64,000 nt of DNA, taken from the NCBI GenBank assembly GCA_030248295.1, contig JASANH010001160.1, positions 62,001 to 126,000 on the forward strand, written 5' to 3'. Source of the stretch: Mesodorylaimus sp. YZB2_4 (Eukaryota; Nematoda; Enoplea; Dorylaimida; Dorylaimidae). Under the pieces are notes generated by a model. That model searched no databases and was not told where the DNA came from. It saw nothing but the letters and a program-made list of their open reading frames with translations. Numbering within the stretch: the stretch's first letter is position 1; each line of letters opens with the position of its first letter. Below are positions 15,644 through 34,784 of the stretch, one piece after another. Position numbers and translations under genes: made by a program.

Positions 15644-17803
15644 ATGGCTAAAGTGAAACAGACAGCTCGTAAATCTACCGGCACCTTTGCGTCCGGTGGC
15701 AAGAAACTTATGAAGAAATTACAGACAAAGAGAACATCGGGTCGTCAAAAGGCGTCGGCGATCGCAGAACGAGTAAAAACGCCGAAGAAGAAACATCGCC
15801 GTTTCAGACCTGGTATGTGTTTATGGCGGGCTTGATGGGTACTTATTCTGTGGGAGGCATTTTTTAGGTTTTCGACAAAAACTCTAATACCTACTGTATG
15901 TATCGGGTGATTATAAAAAACTTCATTATTTTGAAATCAAATATCTCGATAACTACAGTACTGGACAGAACTCGGAAGTTTTTTATTATCCGCGATATGT
16001 GCGCCAGGGTTCGTATTAGGCTGGAAAACCTGTAAAACCGTGAGAAGTTCGGGTGATCGTGAACTTGTGTGGAAAACTTAAAAAAAGGCTAAGAAATAGG
16101 AATTTTCGAAATAAATGACGGAAAACTGTGGGAGGCTGCATTCGAGATTTAAGATTTCTAATCATTCTCTTTTCTCGAACAAAGAAATCGAGTACATATT
16201 TGGCTAAATGATTATGATTTGTTTTGTCCATGATTTTGTTATGTTAGGTAGCAAATTATTTGAGAGCGTCCTACTATAGATGTGCTAGAAAAGTAGGAAT
16301 CAAATTTCTGTCTGGAAAACCCATACAAATCAGATAAAATCTTTTTTGACTCCTTGCGTGACTTGGTTTTTTTTTGTTCGTTGCGCAGTAAGACGAAATA
16401 GCTTAGACTTCCTCGGTCTGTCCTCCCAAACAGGGCTGTCATGAAGTTTTGCGTGTAACTAGCACCAAAACCAAATTTTGAGGGCGCGCGCTCGATAATT
16501 TAGCGATAGTATCCTAGTGTGGATCTGCACATTCCCATGGATGCCTGCATAATTTAGATTCAGAAGCACCCAATAGGTGTCATCCATGTGCATACTCTGC
16601 GGGGTCGAAATGTCTGCGTTCTTTTTGCGTTATACAGCTGGTTTTAGCGTAGTTCGAAGAGCCTAAGAATATTTTAGTATAGCCATGATATAGGTCAGAG
16701 TTGGTTGAAAAACTGTAAATATCAGGGAGCCTGAAGTAATGTCTAGAAAATTTGGAATAATGGGAATTTCTGCGCCAAAATCAGGGAAAATGGTCCAAAT
16801 TTTGAATCTCCAGTTTTTTTTGAAGCCGCGCTAATTACACTGTACTGTTAATCGGAAAATCACCTGAAAATGCTTTAGTACCATGAAAAATCGGCACTAA
16901 ATTTCCTTTTTAGGCGTTTTAGCCCTGAAAGAAATACGTCAATATCAACGATCGACGGAGTTGTTATTGCGCCGTTTGCCATTTCAACGTTTGGTTCGGG
17001 AGATACTATACGGAATTCCTGGCGGCAAGGACCTGCGAATCCAAGCTTTGGCTTTGGAAGCTTTGCAAGTAAGTCTTAGTTATGTATACGCCTGGATCGA
17101 CCCGATCCCGATCCGACTCAGAAAATACAAGATTGGTGAGGATGACGTCTTTGGCACTGAGTCCTCACCAACCTGCCTGTTTCTTCGCTGTAGCGCTCTA
17201 TCAGACCACTCCAGAGCCACGGGAGAGATAACCAGCGCCTAAAGTGGGATTGAATGCTGATTTGAGGGAAAGAAACGGGGTGGTTTCTCATTATAGTATA
17301 CAACATTTTATCATTTTCTAGCAGAAAAAGCGCGAAGAATTTTAGTTGCCGATCCGGCCGATTCACCCCCTGGATCGGTTCGGCCGGATCGGTGCATGCT
17401 GGTGTATACGATAGCTCAGCATCTGAAACCCAGCTCCTGGCCAGGGGGGCGTCTGAAAATTTTTGTCTAGGGGGTCACGTAGGCGATACCCTCATCCTAG
17501 CTTACCCCCAGTTTCGGATGCTGCAGGTTTTGAAATCTCATGTCTAACATTATGGAATGATGGAATTTTATTTTCAACATCGCTCAACTTGCGTCCTAAT
17601 TTGAAAAATTATTTCCCAATCAGTCATTTCACTTCTTGCAAGACATATCGTGTTTCCTATTTTAGCATGCGACCGAAGCCTACTTGGTGTTAAATTTCGA
17701 GGACGCAAACTTGTGCGCGATTCACGCCAAACGCGTGACGATCATGCCCAAGGATATCCAATTGGCTCGTCGTATTCGAGGCGACGCGTTCCTTGCCAAG
17801 TAA
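15644..17803 (+). CDS. Histone H3 variant, probable centromeric H3 (CenH3/CENP-A-like)
   Basis: Three exons, 15644..15812, 16914..17068 and 17666..17803, join in phases 1 and 0 to give 153 residues (canonical H3 has 135-136). The tail starts [13 protein letters not shown], keeping the H3 lysine-4 and ARKS lysine-9 context. It then departs from H3 and is about 12 residues longer; the lysine-27 ARKS motif is absent. The fold follows with [20 protein letters not shown] and [10 protein letters not shown]. Between REI and ALQ there are 18 residues (with [11 protein letters not shown]) against 16 in H3, so loop 1 is two residues longer, as in CENP-A. The last helix and C terminus ([19 protein letters not shown], then ARRIRG) match H3. 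The product should be a nucleosomal histone in the nucleus. Replication-dependent H3 genes lack introns, so this is a variant gene. Alternative: a non-centromeric divergent H3. Confidence 0.85.
17095..17415 (+). repeat. Dispersed ~300-bp repeat, copy 1 (intron 2 of the H3 variant)
   Basis: Shared ordered blocks with the copy at 62445-62770 include AGATTGGTG, GATGACG, TTTGGCACTG, CAGACCACTC/AAGACCACTC, TTTCTCATTATA and GATCCGGCCGAT. Both copies are on the plus strand and both lie in introns. There is no coding frame, and the 3' part carries short palindromes around CGGCCGGATC. Element class unknown. Confidence 0.7.
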
Positions 17804-18639
17804 GGTGATGAAGGGAAACCGAGAAGGGAGACTGGTGTTGTTCTCGTGAGTCTCGTGTCTGTTTTGTACGTGTGAGCTACTGAACATACAGTGTGGTGTT
17901 GGTGAGGTTTATGGAGTTTTGACCCCAGCCACATGCTGGATAATATTAGCACTGATAATGAGTCTGAAATGTAAGTTTGTTTGGTCAGGCCTGCGTGGTT
18001 TTTGACTGCCGTTGTATGATGTACAGTATCGAAAATGTTTTGACTTATTTAACTCGCACTTTGCTTAAATCCTGTGCGGCAATTGGTAGAATATTTTGTA
18101 TGAAGCGTCTGAAATCGTTTTTTTTTTTAATGGTGTAGGAGCAAGGATGGATGGAGCAGAATATGAGCAAGGTCAAGATGCTGAGACAAATTTTAATTTC
18201 TGGCGGTAAAAGTGAATAAACATTTTAAAATTAGGCTTGATATTGTATATTCAGAAAAAACAGACGGGTTTTATAAGACTCGAGCAAGCCGGCTTAAAAG
18301 AGGCAAAGTGAACCATGTGACTTGTGGTGAAGTTGACCCTGTGGGCCCATACGGGTCCTGATGGACTGGATGTAGAAGAGGTTTATTCGACCCCAAAAAA
18401 TTTTGATCATGTGTTATCGAATTTTGATGCTTTGAAACTGACTGAAAATCGGGCTTTGGCGATATTGATCGTCAAAAATCAATCTTGCGTCCAATAGCGA
18501 ACCCTACATGTCATTCAATGCGGAAATGGGTGCATTTTACAATGCCCCCGTCGGAATTATCTTACTCCCTATGACTGACTTGTAAAATAAAAAACCCGCG
18601 AAATTTGAATTAGGGGAGCATCAAAAACTTAAAGAATAC
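17804..18639. other. Intergenic; possible 3' UTR of the H3 variant
   Basis: An AATAAA lies near 18213 (GTGAATAAACATTTT), about 410 bases after the H3 stop, and could be its poly(A) signal. Nothing else is supported. Confidence 0.35.
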
Positions 18640-19370
18640 TGATTGAGCCGGACCGTCCAACGTTTCCCGAACAAGAATTTTGTCATGGTCTGGGGCGCCA
18701 TATCGCACAATGGGCAACTTCCGCTGGTTTTTGTTGAGCCAGGGACCAAAATCAATGGCCAGTAGTATCGTGAAGAAATTTTGGAGAAGCATCTGATCTC
18801 AGCTATCAACGAATTGTATCCAAATATTGATCGGATCTTTCAGCGGGATTCAGCGCCGTCGCAATCCGCCAATTCCGCACAAAAATGGCTCAAAAACCAC
18901 ACTCCTGGTTTCATCACCAAGGACGGTGGTTCCGGCATTCGTCTGTCGGTATTGCTTGTGAGCGAGTGGCTGGACTCGTCTTGGGTTCGATCCCCGATGG
19001 AGGTCAGTTTGCGAGGTATAAACTGTCGCTGACCTTGCACGCCGGGCCGTGGGTGACTCAGCCGGTCGATCCCCCCCCCCCCCCCCCGAGGTGCTCCCAG
19101 TGGGAAGGCGCAGAGGGACACTGCGGTGTGTGCTGGTTCCCGCACAGCCTTCCTTATAAGTTGTGACGGCTGGCTGGCTGGCTGCGGGCAAGTCGGGTGC
19201 AAGCCAAAAAAAATTTTTTCAAAGGCTCTCATCTGATCATGTACCAATTCGCAGTCACTAAATGCAAAGAGCGAAATTTGCCTGACCAATATATATTTCA
19301 CTTGAAGGCTCCCCTCAAATATGTTTGTGTGGTCTGTTGGAGTTTAGAAAACACTCTGAATGCTAAGCTT
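18640..19370 (+). pseudogene. Mariner-type transposase remnant, interrupted by a SINE-like insertion
   Basis: In one frame from about 18690 the translation gives NFVMVWGAISHNGQLPLVFV, then REEILEKHL, FQRDSAPSQ and KWLKNHTPGFIT. This is the characteristic order of mariner/Tc1 transposases around the second and third catalytic positions (the VMVWGA and QDSAPSH regions). An in-frame TAG stop follows NGQ near 18763. After ITKD (about 18920) the frame runs into a SINE-like copy. The mariner match resumes near 19330 with WSLENTLNAK, the usual W-x-x-LE region downstream of DLNPLDY. The element is dead. Neither end nor terminal repeats could be placed. Confidence 0.75.
18921..19215 (+). mobile_element. 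SINE-like element, family 1 copy inside the mariner remnant
   Basis: The copy begins GGACGGTGGTTCCGGCATTC and has a B box GGGTTCGATCCC near 18984. It includes the family block CTGACCTTGCACGCCGGGCC, a run of about 15 C at 19073-19087, and ends in an A-rich stretch near 19207. It splits mariner coding sequence, so it inserted later. Confidence 0.75.
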
Positions 19371-21127: not shown

Positions 21128-22941
21128 ACGTTATTTTAAAAAATGTCTTCCGACCTAGTCCATGGCTGAAACATGACCCTCATAAGTGACGCTCCGAGCT
21201 GTCGGTTCTGTGTGGGACCTGCATTGAGGAAATCGGATCAGCAGACTATTCGGTTTTTCAAACAGCCGATGAGAGACACCGGTTTCCTCTCCTGCCTGGA
21301 CATGGCCTGATGCGGGGTATGTTATCGAAATGGCGGTGTTAATTTGACAACCAAGGCGGTATGGAGGCGAGCCCGAATTGCCCCGTCGCCTTGTGGTTCT
21401 GGGCGCGTGCATTTTTTGCACGTCGTTGGCAGTGACCCGAAAGTGCCTAGATGGGCGAGACAAATGGGTGTGAGGCATGTTTCTGGCGATTCGAGTGGAA
21501 GTTGGATGGGAAGGCAAGGATTGGCTCCTTTTCGCTTTTGGCTTGGAAAGAAGTCACGGCCGTAGGACTCGTCCAAAACGACAATTTGTCTTCGCTTAAC
21601 AGCTCCCCTAAGCCGACTAGAAGGATGGGTGAATCGGAGGCTAGCAGAGAGTGAGGACGATGCTCTGGGAGCAAAGTCACAAATGCTATTGGCTAGTTTA
21701 TCTGGATTATGCTCGGATGCGGCTTTTTGAGAATGTATTTTTCCCTAAATCTATACTCCGGACCTCGGCCAGAAATTGATGCGCCCGCTTGGCCGAACCT
21801 AAGTGGACGTGTAATACATACGGCCACTATAACGCCTACATCGGTGCCGGCCCGGGCCGAGGGGCAAAATTGGCTGGCACCATTGGGAGAAGCCGCTTAA
21901 TTAGCGTTATACGACTTCGAAATAGGGATCACCAATATTTCCTAGCCCGGCCCCCTTCCCACCAGCCCCGTTCTACGTGCCCCTATATATAGCACAAGCC
22001 GTGCGTACTGGCCTGGAGAAAGGGGTCGTTCGGACAAACCCAACCGCTCCTTACCCAGAAGCCGTTTTATGGGCGGAAGTTACTTTCTCGTGTCACAAAT
22101 GCTATTCAGAGCAGCGGGGGAGTCAGTGAAGCGAAATCGGCTGATGCGTGACGTCAATCGGTGCTGGTGCGTTGACGTATTCGGATTGGACATGAAAGAA
22201 TAAGTCCTATATAAGGCTCCCTTTTTGCTAGGTCTTTCCTGGCCCCTCAGTTCTAGCTCGTGCCATCACCACACTTGGCCTAAAATGGTCACGATTCAGG
22301 TCTTTTCTAGATTTTCACGCCTTCGAGTGTTTTCTGGCTGTCAACCAAAGAAAACAATTCCGAATTCCTTACGTCCTCGGCCTTGAAGATACTTTTATTA
22401 GCTTCTTGGCTAGTTGAACTGGCGCCGCACTGCTCGATTGACCCGAGCTGATGGTCTTCTGCATGGTATGATTGGCCTTCGGATCATTCTCTCGCCTGGA
22501 ATTAGTCTCATTTTTTACAAAGCGATTCGATTCGCCGAGTTTTTTCATGTAAGGTGGTGGAAATTTTTTTGAAGTGGATCATAAGTTTTTCTGCTGTTTT
22601 GTCGATTCCCAATCGCAATGCTGATGATTGAAGGATGGGTTTTGTGAGTGTTTCAGCAAGACCTGCTTTGAAGTCTTGTCGCAAGACTCACCCGATCCCT
22701 GCCCAGTATCTGATAAGTTAAAGATGCTTCGCACTGTTTTCTTGTGATGCTCTGACCGACCTTACCCAGCTGTGCTGATTCCTTGCAAATGGTCTTTCTA
22801 TTTTTTAGAAAGGCAGCGAATGGATTTGGTCATAAAATGTGAATATGCTGACGAGTTGCATGTTTGAAAATTGTGACCCGAATCGATCAGACATTAGTTT
22901 GGTACGGCCATATTTACAAATCACCATAGGCCGCCCCGACC
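21128..22941. other. Intergenic and probable upstream region of the K2P gene
   Basis: G/C-rich sequence with overlapping frames on both strands and no recognisable product. TATA-like motifs lie at about 21984 (CTATATATAG) and 22208-22215 (TATATAAG). Either could start a transcript with a non-coding first exon ahead of the channel start at 22942. Confidence 0.3.
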
Positions 22942-25656
22942 ATGAGCATCGGCGAGGAAAGTAGGCGTCGAGTGACGAGGACGCGAGGATTGGTTATACT
23001 GATCAAAAAATTTGTAGCCTTCTTATTCAGTCACGTAGGATTATGCGCTTTGGTCATCGCTTACACCATGCTCGGATCGGTATTATTCCAAGCCATCGAG
23101 GCATCGCACGAACGAAGTATCCACGATTTTGTGCGCGGTAGCAGGCGGAAAGCTGCGGCCGCAATTTGGAAGGCAACCTATAGATATAATGTGCACGTGG
23201 AGAACTGGACAATCGTGGCCAGCAGAGAAGTGGATGAATACAAACAGGTTCTCATGAAAGTCATTCGTAAAGGCTACGATGCAAACGACCAGCAGGATAA
23301 CACTCAATGGACTTTCGCCGGTGCCTTCCTTTACTCGCTCACTGTGGTCACCACAATTGGTAAGGGCCACTTCACTGCCCCTGGACGCTGCCTGTTTGAG
23401 TACTTTTTGGCACGGACGGATTGACGTTGGCGTGCTGGGTGTGCAACCCATGCTGTAGATAGGATAGAGCTTGTGGGCTATCATGGACACTCTTGTGATC
23501 GGAGAGGGATCTGAATGGCCCAGACATGCCTCTATTTCAGTACTCTGACCTGGAAAGTTGGATCTGAAATTGCTTATACAGTAACTCCGGTGAAACACTA
23601 GGTGCCTTTACCAGCTGTCGTGGACTGCCTGCTTGGAAACCCAGTGCTCGATAGACTTTAGACTTTTACCGTATTCATCTCTTGTTTCGTCTCAGCCCCT
23701 TTTGGTCACCACTCGGGCCATTTATCTGTCTCCCCATTAGGTTTCAGTCGCCAATTTTCTCTTCCAACGTTTTCATGCCAGACGATCGGTATGAGATGGG
23801 GTTAGAAAAATACGTGTGAAACAAGTCTTTAGAGAAAAAACTATCCCAGAAAACAAACATTTTCTCCAAGGCTGCCCATCCTTATATTCGAAAACGTAAA
23901 TCTCGTTTGGCTTGTGAACGCTTCCGCCAGGCTAAGTCCTTGCAATGATTGCCACCAGCCGTCTGCCCTTTTTGGACATTCACCAGTGGCAGGCCATCTG
24001 CTATCGGTGACTGATCTCGGCGCGTTCAATGGCCGGACACAAAAAGAGAATTGAGTGCGCGTGTGACTTGAGTCGGGGATCGATACGAAATCTCGACTTA
24101 GCATCAGACGTATATAGCGAATGTATGCCGCACAAGGGGGCTGGTCAAGGATAAACGGCTTTCTAGATTTCCTCGATCGTATGTTTGGGATCGGTTGAAA
24201 AGCTGTTGATGGTAGCGTGAATGAGTGCTATGTTGCATTTGGAGTGGCCCATGCGTGCTAGTACCCACTTTCTTGATCCGAGCCAGAATGGCTTTTGATA
24301 AATTCAGTTTGTCCCCATTTTTTGTTAGTGTCCGTATTTTGAAGCAAGGAGTTTAGGGTTCGCAGAGCTCCATTGCAACCAAACTTGCTGAGCCTTCGAT
24401 CAGTCGCATTGAGAGCACAGGTGACTCATTGCGAGCCAGAGGCCTTTTATTCACAAGGGGTGACTTGGAATTTCTCCTAGTCTGCAGGGACCAGTGACTC
24501 ATCCCTTCCCCATAAAATTATTTTTTCTAAATTGTCTTTTACTTCAGGCTACGGCAACATCGCTTGTCAGACTTATTTCGGCAAAGCAATGACCATAATC
24601 TATGCCATCCTGGGCATACCCCTAATGCTCCTATTCTTAACCAACGTTGGCGACGTATTAGCTAGAGTATTCAAATTTCTTTATCGCAAATCTGTTCGAC
24701 TAAAGCTTCAAATTCAAATCTGGAATAAACGCCGAAAAGCTCGTCAACTGCGTCGCGCCAACAGTGCAGCGGCGGCCAAAACGTTGCAGCAAATGCAACA
24801 GCAACAACATCAACTGCAGCAACAGCAACAGCAACCAACGCCTTCACCACGCTCGCAAACGCACGACAAGAGACATCATCAAAGAAATGCAAATGGAAAA
24901 AGATCAATGCAAAAGATTTCAACCGTCTCGCAACCCACTCCTCATTCGGGCATCGGCAGCAGCAGCAGTCAGAGCAGTAGTCTGCAACTGCTCCAACATC
25001 AACACTTGCAAGAAAGACAGCACAGCGGCAGTGGTAGCAGTGCCAAAATGTCACGTACCAGCCCCCGTACGGCCAATATGCCCAATCATTACCCGCAGCT
25101 GGGTGGACACGGCAGTCAAGAGTCGTTCCCGCTGGCCATCAGTATCCTTCAGCCATCACCGTCTACCCAAGCAGCAACTGCAGCTATTGAGCAACTGGCC
25201 ATGGAACAGATGCGTTTGGAGGCATTGGCTCACAAGTACGAAATGGAGGAGTTCTCGTTACGGGAGTCGACCGAGGACAAGCTGAGCAAGGTGGTCGTCC
25301 CGTTGTGGCTGGTCTTCATGACCATGCTCGGCTACTTGATGGGAGGTGCTCTGCTGTTCACTGTGTGGGAAGGGTGGGGATTCTTCGAGTCCTTCTATTT
25401 CTGCTACGTTTCTCTGGCAACTATTGGATTTGGTGACCTGTTCCCAGGCACGTCACTCAAAGATGCCGGGTCGGCGCAAGAAAAATTGACTATTACTTCC
25501 TTGTATTTGCTATTGGGTATGGCATTGATCGCTATGTGCTTTAATTTGGCCCAAGAAGAAGTAGTGAGCAAGATGACCAGGATAGCCGACAAGCTGGGCA
25601 TTATTAATCACTCGTCATCGGAAGCTGGTGATTCGGTTTGTGAGACCGAATCCTGA
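22942..25656 (+). CDS. Two-pore-domain potassium channel (K2P/TWK type)
   Basis: Exons 22942..23359 and 24548..25656 join in phase 1 to 508 residues. M1 contains VIAYTMLGSVLFQAIE. The extracellular cap has an NWT glycosylation sequon. The first pore reads TVVTTIGYGN, and the intron falls inside the first Gly codon of that filter, a position shared by many K2P genes. M2 is YAILGIPLMLLFLTNVGDVL. M3 includes GYLMGGALLF, the second filter is SLATIGFGDLFPG, and M4 is LYLLLGMALIAMCFNLAQEE. K2P channels carry background potassium current across the plasma membrane. The M2-M3 cytoplasmic loop is about 200 residues with Gln-rich (QQMQQQQHQLQQQQQQ), Ser-rich and His-rich tracts, far longer than usual. 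Which vertebrate class is orthologous is not clear. Confidence 0.93.
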
Positions 25657-31734: not shown

Positions 31735-34684
31735 TTAGAACAGGCATAGAACAGAGCAAACAAGAAAAGTCAAAAGCCTGGTTGAAGGCACATACACCAT
31801 CCCATTTTTGCATGTGGGTGTTTGAGCACTCCATAGCTTGTCGTCGGTGCAGTGAATGTTCTTTGCTCCTTCTAAGGTATACCCCTCGTAACAACCAAAA
31901 GTGGCAGAAGCCCCAACGAAATAATTGGTTGCATTCACGTACCCATTTTCGGGTAATTTTAGAGTCTGGCACATGGCTACTTCTTGCGTCAAAGTGGTCA
32001 CCGTGGCATTGAACTGCTGCACAGTCTCCAAGGTGCGATTGGCGAAGCTGATGCTCTGAGTCGTTGAGTAATCGTACAAACATTCGAACTGACCATCGCA
32101 CAGTTGCACCGCTAATTCGGGCAGTGATTGCACATTGGGGGTGGCAAAGTTGGGTTGGAAGGAATAGTTCTTGTAGGATCCGTGGTCGCGTCCACTGGGG
32201 TACTTGAAAAGTGACTCTTCCGCAGTCGTTATCCAATCCAAACCGAACTCGTAATGAATTGTTTCCAGGGACGAGTTTAGTGGGACCAAAGTGCCGTTGC
32301 GGGTTTTAAGGTCGTCGACATCGTTGTCGTTATAAAAACCCAGTAAACCTTTTGTAGACCCTTTGTTCCAGGGACTCGCCATGGCCACGAGAAGAAACGA
32401 ATTTTCAAATCTAGTAAACAGGAAACTAAACCCACTAGCGACTGTGATGGTGGCTTCAGTTTGATCCGGGGACACAGTGATAGCTGACTGGTCAGTGTGA
32501 ACTTTGCGCCCTTTTTGTTCTGCTCCAAACTGGATCAGATTTCCGTCCAAAAGAATCGATATACCAGTCGATGGGGCCAGTTGCACTTGAATCACTTCGT
32601 TCTCTTCACGCATGGCGAAAGCTGTGAACACTGAAGCGGGCATGACATCCCCATTTTCTCGAACATACACTTCCATGCGGGCTTGCATATCCAACGAAGT
32701 GCCATCACCTTTGATCATCCAAAATTCACCAACCCCATTGAAAGTGTACGTGGCCAAATCGAAGGTGGTAATGTGAGGATCGCCGTGTCCGCGGGCTGGT
32801 CTAGGCGGCACATACTCGGTTCCGGGATCCGATGGTCGTTTTTCGTAGTATTTACGGCAGTTATCTCGCGTGTTTTTTGAATAAACGCAACAATAGCACC
32901 AAGGAAGAACGTCTTCACTCCAATGTCCCACAACATTTTTCTTGTAGGATGGTGAAAAGCGATCAGCCGTTCCCCCGCCAGGTGGCCCGAGTAGGAGTCG
33001 CCCGTTCTTGTACGTGCACTGCTGCCCAGCGCCGCTCGGACTAGGTGTTCGTTGCCGATAAGAGTAATCAGCTCCAGGGTGGAAAAATGCCAGGGCTGGA
33101 CCGGTATCTGGTTCAAATCGCTCGTCCTGAATGGCTTGTTCCAGGAGGGGAGGACACGGTAAGATATCTGAAGGAACGCCACGATCGCCTTTGTACCAGG
33201 CGTAACACTTTTCGTCTAAGTTTCCAATGGAATTTGGTAAAATGAATTCCAAACCGCAGTACACTCTGCTGGTTGCGCTTTTGATAGCTTTTGTAGCCCC
33301 GTCCTTCAAGGTACGCAGGTCGAGCAGGACCAAAGAGGCAACTTCATGTCCCTGGGTAATAATCCTTGTGTGACCAGTGTTTGGGATGTTCTCAGCAAGT
33401 ACAGCCTTCTCCACCCAGTGTTCCCCATCGAGGTCGTATTCTAGTAGGACCAATTCCAAGTTTTGATAAACGTCAGCATTGTGGTCCCAGTCCCTGGCCA
33501 AGGATGGGGGAGCGATGTCCTGGAAAAGTGTTGGATCCCAAACGAGATCCAAGGTCAGTGTTTCTGCGCCCTTGGTCACATCAGCCTTGATATCCTCTTC
33601 TAACTCGTTCAAGTACAAATACCCGGTATAGACCTCGGATGAGTGGTTCAGTTCCAATTCCAGATCAATCTTTATTCTTCCAAGTGTGTACATGTAAGGG
33701 ACTTGGCAAATGGCTTCTGGATTTTTGTCGGCTATTTGAATAAAGGCGGGAACTTTCATTTGACCTTTCTGATCATGGAAAACGCAAAATGCCGAGAACG
33801 ACTCGTTGAAACAGGGTCCTTTGATGGAAATGGGAACTCGAGAGAACAAAGTCACAAAAGATGGACTAATCTGTAATTGCTCATTTTCGTATGTCCGACT
33901 GTCGCAAGCAGCTGACTCAAAAGTATTGTCAACCCTGAATATCCATTTTCCAGGCGAGCGCACATTGCTGGTTTGCGTGATATTGATAATGTCAGGTGTG
34001 CACGAAGCAGGCACTTCGAAGAAAGTTTTCCCATCGCCCACATCGAAACCAGCTTTTGCTTCAGTCCCATTGAGTCCCCTGCAATTGCCTCCGGAAGCTG
34101 TGCCCGAAGTCCAGGTTATGTTGGAGTAATAGAATATGGCGAAGGAGTGAATGCTATCGCTGGTCAGTATTGCTTGAAATGTGTTTCGGAGTGCGGTCGA
34201 ATCGGACATGCCGCATCCTCTCCTAGCACCATAGAAGGGAACGTTGTACCAGGTCGCGATGAAGAGCGAGTTCAGTGTCAGACCCCACATGTTTGGGAAG
34301 GCAGATTGGATCTCTTGGACGAAGACCGCGATCAATGGTTTCTCTGTAGAACACTGATCCACCCAGTCCCTGGCTATTATCAACATCAGCCCAAAAGGGG
34401 GCTACCATGCTTAGCTGGGCTGGCAAGGAGCCACACACGGGCGTAAACTCGGAGACGCCTCTGACGAACGATATGGCCCCGTTGTTATCCACAAATAGCA
34501 TCTTCTGGGAAACGTTGAACAAAGGGAACGGGTGTCGAAGCTGAATGGGGCCAGCGAAGGAGTCATCAGCGAGTGGGCCTGTCGAATCGCCGGCATCGAT
34601 ACCAAATGGGTACAGGTCCTCTGCGGGAACCTCGCCCAGAGAAAATGGAAGCAACGAGCACAGAAGGAAGAGAATCATAGCCAT
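31735..34684 (-). CDS. NIDO-AMOP-VWD-sushi surface protein (mesh/MUC4-like), intronless, with a frame break
   Basis: The start chosen is ATG 34684 (MAMILFLLCSLLPFSLG, a signal peptide), just below a TATAAAG. The NIDO domain follows: DLYPFGIDAGD, LFVDNNGAISF, MVAPFWADVD, FYRETID. Near 34325-34336 the frame shifts by +1 and continues with VFVQEIQSAFPN and NSLFIATWYNVPFYG. An 865-codon frame then runs through a cysteine-rich AMOP-like part, a VWD domain (HGDPHITTFDLATYTFNGVG), a sushi/CCP module (CQTLKLPENGYV to TPTCKN) and a hydrophobic C terminus suited to a membrane or GPI anchor. Insect mesh of this architecture acts at septate junctions. All of it lies on one exon, unusual for this family. 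The break may mean a pseudogene, retrocopy or unusual expression. Confidence 0.85.
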
Positions 34685-34725
34685 GTCCACGTCGACTTGC
34701 ATACACGTCACATTGTGATAAGGGG

Positions 34726-34732
34726 CTTTATA
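34726..34732 (-). promoter_or_regulatory. TATA box of the NIDO/VWD gene
   Basis: The minus strand reads TTATAAAGCCCC here. A transcript starting about 30 bases downstream would begin close to 34700, so the ATG at 34684 rather than 34702 is the better start. Confidence 0.5.
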
Positions 34733-34784
34733 AGGAACTAAAAGGAGTAGGAGCGCCGTAATGACAAATTAAGTTTTATTGAGT

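Follow-up and report, generated by a model that had tools for sequence, protein, structure and literature searches.

The centromeric variants of histone H3 (CenH3, or CENP-A-type) usually carry highly divergent, fast-evolving tails. They are treated as a functional class in the excerpt available of PMC3380720, and the accessible part of PMC4359364 gives as their diagnostics an extended loop 1, divergence of the tail, a phylogenetic grouping of their own and the lack of three residues, Q69, F85 and a Thr numbered 118 in print. In human CENP-A, Lys at positions 49 and 53, in place of two Arg that hold the DNA ends, loosens those ends (PMC4365049, in excerpt). From papers available in part, the CenH3 of Oikopleura is intron-bearing with a very divergent tail (PMC3156773), and an HJURP-CENPA-H4 complex has been predicted for a tardigrade (PMC13001451). 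An H3 tail has been placed artificially on a CENH3 core in Arabidopsis where, according to the available sections of PMC3111537, the GFP-tailswap protein loads normally in mitosis and is depleted from meiotic kinetochores; the untagged tail swap is fertile, and meiosis fails when the protein is GFP-tagged. No animal CenH3 with an H3-like tail appeared among the matches listed in our literature search, the coverage of which lay mostly outside subscription papers.

The gene described here lies in a window of 64,000 nucleotides, the whole stretch of DNA analysed (G000:C230:62001-126000), from the 145-Mb genome, in 1067 contigs, of the nematode Mesodorylaimus sp. YZB2_4. It runs on the plus strand from an ATG at 15644 to a stop codon ending at 17803, where a previous reading of the letters alone (hereafter, the sequence-only reading) had placed it, and its three exons join into one open frame of 153 amino acids, with two GT-AG introns. 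Exon 1 (15644-15812) encodes the tail, residues 1-56, plus the first base of the Gly codon in RPG, with the GT donor following CCTG. Intron 1 (15813-16913; 1101 bp, phase 1) thus falls within that Gly, and exon 2 (16914-17068), which contains a match to PF00125 (contig C230, 78910-79068), supplies the N-terminal helix, helix 1, loop 1 and the first part of helix 2. Intron 2 (17069-17665; 597 bp, phase 0) follows ALQ, and exon 3 (17666-17803) encodes the remainder of helix 2, loop 2, helix 3, the C-terminal tail and the stop. About 0.4 kb past the stop, an AATAAA on the same strand (18215-18220) is, by motif position only, a candidate polyadenylation signal. Pfam analysis of the product identified a histone domain at residues 27-146 (E 1.6e-39) and no other family over its curated cut-off, CENP-T_C reaching 20 bits against a cut-off of 28.1. 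Just downstream of the gene, frames at 18643-19032 (+) resemble by eye a Tc1/mariner-type transposase, with no Pfam match above cut-off.

Comparison with an H3.3 of the same genome (C31) showed identity at 68 of the 91 positions of the histone fold, from RPG to RRIRG, plus two extra residues in loop 1. The stretch from REI to ALQ is accordingly 18 residues long, whereas the H3 and H3.3 of this genome have 16; where H3.3 has AQDFKT, the variant ends helix 1 and forms its extended loop with LYGIPGGK (codons at 17006-17029, +). The N-terminal helix is changed at 5 of 15 sites (T45V, V46L, R49K, R53Q and K56R), F84 is replaced by Ile, and helix 2 carries S86A, A87L, I89L, G90E, E94H, S96T, G102L, L103N and T107A, the last with its Ala codon at 17705-17707 (+). 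Among these changes, the motif AAIG at positions 87-90, a chaperone site of H3.3, has become LALE. Conversely, positions 108-132, comprising the end of helix 2, loop 2 and helix 3, are those of H3.3 at every site, and the protein ends in DAFLAK (17783-17800, +) in place of the ERA of H3.

The density of changes was higher at H3 positions 78-93 (loop 1 with the start of helix 2), with 8 of 16 sites changed, than in the other fold sites (15 of 75; Fisher one-sided p = 0.017). When loop 1 and all of helix 2 were taken together (78-114), the difference was not significant (13/37 versus 10/54, p = 0.06), which removes a significant clustering over the whole CENP-A targeting domain and leaves it for 78-93 alone. 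The sequence-only reading was thus right about the two additional loop-1 residues, about a clustering of divergence in loop 1 and the first part of helix 2, and about a C-terminal third like that of H3, although it had overlooked the DAFLAK end.

Several of these features are those of known CenH3s. Human CENP-A and CID share the two-residue extension of loop 1, which amounts to three residues in Cse4 and is absent from H3.3. F84 and the C-terminus of H3 are replaced in the variant and in all three of these proteins, and R49 is altered in the variant, human CENP-A and Cse4. T107 is Ala, being replaced also in human CENP-A and CID, and Cse4 keeps Thr at 107/108. Position 118 remains Thr in the variant and also in human CENP-A, Cse4 and CID, so we take the printed 118 of the diagnostic list to be a slip for 107/108. 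The absence of Phe 84/85 given in the available part of PMC4359364 holds for the variant, in which this residue is Ile, and the absence of Gln 68/69 does not, since Q68 is kept where human CENP-A, Cse4 and CID have Ser, Ala and Ser, respectively. Further unlike these three proteins, the variant has an unchanged helix 3, a fold largely that of H3 and a nearly intact tail start. R49K and R53Q alter both of the arginines that are Lys in human CENP-A, Gln at 53 lying outside the test in the PMC4365049 excerpt. From the H3.3 proteins of its own genome (C31, C61 and C43), which it resembles in intron positions, fold and tail start, the variant differs by the two loop-1 residues, which take the loop beyond H3 length, by the loss of AAIG (A87L, I89L and G90E), by the lack of a recognisable S31 and by its altered N-terminal helix and C-terminus.

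We then compared the positions of the changes with those in human CENP-A, bearing in mind that the tests of site overlap and of residue identity are post hoc, the sequence being already known. The sites changed in the variant and in CENP-A overlapped at 16 of 22 (p = 9e-5), and after removal of sites 75-80 and of those variable in H3.Y or yeast H3 the overlap was 6 of 10 (p = 0.013), four of the six carrying the same residue as human CENP-A (R49K, S86A, I89L and T107A). As controls, the sites changed in human H3.Y overlapped those of CENP-A at 9 of 14 (p = 0.02), the sites changed in yeast H3 did so at 6 of 10, which is not significant (p = 0.10), and 8 of the variant's 23 changed sites were also changed in H3.Y (p = 0.01), indicating that part of the overlap with CENP-A is unspecific. 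H3.Y is known only from primates and is not known as a centromeric histone; it shares with the variant changes at V46, R53, I62, 77-80 and G102, and lacks, unlike the variant, the insertion in loop 1. When the variant's own substituted residues were permuted, the four identities with CENP-A compared with 1.6 expected (p = 0.06), which is only suggestive, and the same permutation gave no significant excess of identity with Cse4 (2, p = 0.16) or CID (1, p = 0.76).

A phylogeny of H3-like proteins, proposed together with the original claim of a centromeric role, was run on 11 fold sequences and placed the variant with the H3s (support 92/89), not with six CenH3s, although none of its eight inner branches reached the full-support mark. 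Likewise, the AU test disfavoured grouping the variant with the six CenH3s (p = 0.007, with a log-likelihood difference of only 1.2) and did not reject placing it beside the H3 and H3.3 of its own genome (p = 0.29). The tree is weak, because its 11 sequences are short, five of them did not come from a database record, and CID and HTR12 sit on long branches; as it stands, this small tree lends no support to CENP-A orthology. The closest PDB chains were all H3s, with no CENP-A among the best 60 of 178 matches for the whole protein or the best 60 of 176 for the fold.

The H3-type start of the tail, also noted in the sequence-only reading, was evident on comparison: in codons 1-13 (15644-15682, +), 11 of 13 residues are those of H3, the differences being R2K and T3V, and QTARKSTG is intact. 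Past residue 13, alignments to PDB chains showed a divergent tail with about five inserted residues, in which the region of K27 is unrecognisable. T3 is the haspin site, S10 an Aurora B site, and QTARKS the context of HP1 and K9. The suggestion that this tail might be open to H3-type marks thus finds support only in part: the K9/S10 context is intact, and with R2 and T3 altered to Lys and Val, such marks are more plausible at K9/S10. An H3-like tail start is also a feature of plant CENH3. We take the maize tail beginning MARTKH to be that of CENH3, not of H3; only its first five residues are those of H3, whereas the variant follows H3 through QTARKSTG. In print, in the excerpt of PMC4814585, this maize tail is labelled an H3 tail.

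Is this tail start simply a sign of youth? The sequence-only reading had offered, as one option, a recently evolved centromeric H3, and this found no support. Against three of the five paralogues (C424, C148 and C31, with C61 and C43 left out), dN over the fold was 0.23 to 0.26 and dS was saturated, at 2.6 to 4.8. In the first 13 codons, 5 to 8 of the 10 matched codons capable of silent change differed silently from each of the five H3/H3.3 genes. Saturated silent sites with conserved amino acids indicate that the gene is old, and, together with the silent differences in the tail codons, they led us to reject a recent duplication. For the same reason, the tail start QTARKSTG looks to have been kept by selection, rather than by recency.

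The agreement of the intron positions with those of the H3.3 genes, a point absent from the sequence-only reading, bears on the origin of the gene. The position and phase of intron 1 are common to the variant and the three H3.3 genes (C31, C61 and C43); intron 2 lies at the same position in C31, and C61 and C43 leave the frame at the same ALQ. Neither canonical H3 gene has an intron within its open frame. These shared introns indicate common ancestry with an intron-bearing gene of H3.3 type. The 3' ends gave no means of telling replication-coupled genes from replication-independent ones, since a search for the histone stem-loop family at E up to 1 returned none at any of the six loci (canonical, H3.3 and variant), its sole match being a sub-threshold miRNA family.

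We examined whether the genome contains another candidate. A PF00125 search scored 29 candidates and returned 19 matches, all of which were read: ten are exons of the two canonical H3 genes, the three H3.3 genes and the variant, and the other nine were assigned by reading to H2A (2), H2A.Z (3), H2B (2), NF-YB (1) and NF-YC (1). With the variant as query, 13 matches were obtained, 11 of them in the six H3-type genes and two in short H3 fragments, and all the matches to human CENP-A (10/10) and Drosophila CID (6/6) fell in the same six genes. The variant is the only divergent, non-H3.3-type H3 gene found, in a single copy, as CenH3 genes usually are. No second CenH3, nor any clearer CenH3 orthologue of the kind that would have displaced the variant, was thus found by the PF00125, variant, CENP-A and CID searches, which a very divergent or intron-split gene could escape. 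The weak histone matches were read as the H2A.Z, H2A, H2B, NF-YB and NF-YC genes, and were discarded as candidates together with the short, isolated H3-like fragments at G000:C410:46179-46256 and G000:C813:1919-2002, which are probably pseudogene remnants. Near-identical H2A.Z-like exon stretches occur on two different contigs (G000:C17:921717-921917 and G000:C76:394396-394608).

Searches of the genome for CENP-C and Scm3 gave no match, but they were insensitive and had no working positive control, so that the empty answer does not equal absence. An exon-wise search of the same kind as that for CENP-C did find Ndc80; CENP-C and Scm3 diverge far more than Ndc80. One CENP-C candidate (C36:542142, E 1.5) was rejected, since inspection by eye showed no frame resembling CENP-C and a motif pattern did not match it.

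Other loci were recorded along the way. Elsewhere in the window, two frames at 22930-25656 (+) with Ion_trans_2 matches likely encode a two-pore potassium channel into which a Gln-rich segment is inserted, and two overlapping frames at 31735-34768 (-), one of 888 residues, carry NIDO, AMOP, VWD, C8-3_MUC4 and Sushi domains, in an order that we take to resemble insect Mesh. A near-complete COX1 (L032, G000:C73:251816-256168) reads in the invertebrate mitochondrial code inside a 460-kb contig, next to an inverted COX1 fragment (G000:C73:251445) and to stretches that by eye resemble an antisense 16S and a nad4 frame; either this is a nuclear copy or mitochondrial DNA was misjoined here. Among the 27 of 78 homeodomain matches listed, at least seven look by eye to be of Hox type (L057, L059, L061, L063, L064, L068 and L069, on C1, C36, C39 and C129). 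These seven were read as lab-like, Hox3-like (two), Dfd-like (two), ftz/Lox5-like and Abd-B-like, with duplicates on C36 and C1. Such a set is like the reduced Hox complement of tardigrades, but the genes around COX1 are not in an order that fits tardigrades.

On the best reading, the variant is a CenH3 candidate of long standing and the natural equivalent of the man-made tailswap CENH3, and on present comparisons it is probably the centromeric H3 of this species. Being the only gene of this type found, among the 19 matches to PF00125 and with both CenH3 queries, and having the longer loop 1 with F84 and T107 replaced, it fits the centromeric H3 that the sequence-only reading had proposed; the kept Q68 and the position in the tree with H3 speak against that proposal. 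Formal membership of the CenH3 class, which is defined functionally by localisation at centromeres and support of the kinetochore, is not established, in view of this Gln, the H3-like start of the tail and the outcome of the tree. The likeness to the GFP-tailswap protein lies in a CenH3-type core behind an H3-type tail; that protein, however, is man-made and has an H3 tail, whereas the variant conserves only the first 13 residues and the remaining tail has diverged.

The main rival is a lineage-specific, non-centromeric replacement variant, serving for example in the germline or under stress, that arose from H3.3 and lengthened its loop 1 for some other reason. Such an origin accords with the introns common to the H3.3 genes, a fold identical to H3.3 at 68 of 91 positions with helix 3 unchanged, the tree, the retention of Q68 and of the tail start, and the 8 of 23 changed sites in common with H3.Y. 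We nevertheless regard it as unlikely: no CenH3 would then have been detected in this genome, R49K, S86A, I89L and T107A are all identical to human CENP-A, and the H3.Y chain lacks a loop-1 insertion, which the three CenH3s verified against PDB chains have.

A second alternative is a special form of the CenH3 reading, not exclusive of it: a centromeric H3 could have arisen independently from H3.3, replacing a lost CENP-A, with a convergent loop 1. The accessible parts of the literature leave room for it, in that CenH3 loss is reported in Gnathifera (PMC12460157) and some insects (PMC4359364) and CenH3 monophyly is uncertain (PMC3380720), although the last excerpt also calls monophyly the most parsimonious hypothesis. 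The H3.3 introns and the grouping with H3 both speak for it, but a tree of this size would not tell it from a slowly evolving true orthologue, residue-for-residue matches to human CENP-A occur at several sites, and any new origin must be old, given the saturated silent sites; we consider this course of events improbable. Finally, a decaying H3.3 duplicate is disfavoured and very improbable, since the short H3 fragments on C410 and C813 notwithstanding, the variant has an intact frame, canonical splice sites and a fold dN of 0.23 to 0.26 against saturated dS.

If the variant is, as we favour, the centromeric H3, a dedicated chaperone would recognise it by the extended loop 1 and the altered helix 2, which would also keep it off the loading routes of H3.3 and canonical H3. 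The altered N-terminal helix (R49K, R53Q) may allow looser DNA at the nucleosome ends, and the partly hydrophobic C-terminus may dock an inner-kinetochore protein. The conserved first 13 residues of the tail, unusual in an animal, would permit marks of the K9/S10 type on the centromeric nucleosome itself, with the T3 site lost.

We put forward more tentatively, as a doubtful proposal, that this animal builds its centromeric nucleosome with a selected H3 tail start, so that the CenH3's own K9 and S10 could be methylated and phosphorylated and HP1-type readers and Aurora-type kinases could act on it directly, while haspin marking would be avoided through the loss of T3; at its boldest, the proposal has the CenH3 re-derived from H3.3 and not orthologous to CENP-A. 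Were the main reading true, the gene would join, in nature, a CenH3-like core to a tail start conserved from H3, and would offer a ready way to test the function of the tail and to ask whether centromeric nucleosomes can bear ordinary H3 marks. Should it have been re-derived from H3.3, it would also bear on whether a new H3 variant can take over centromere identity.
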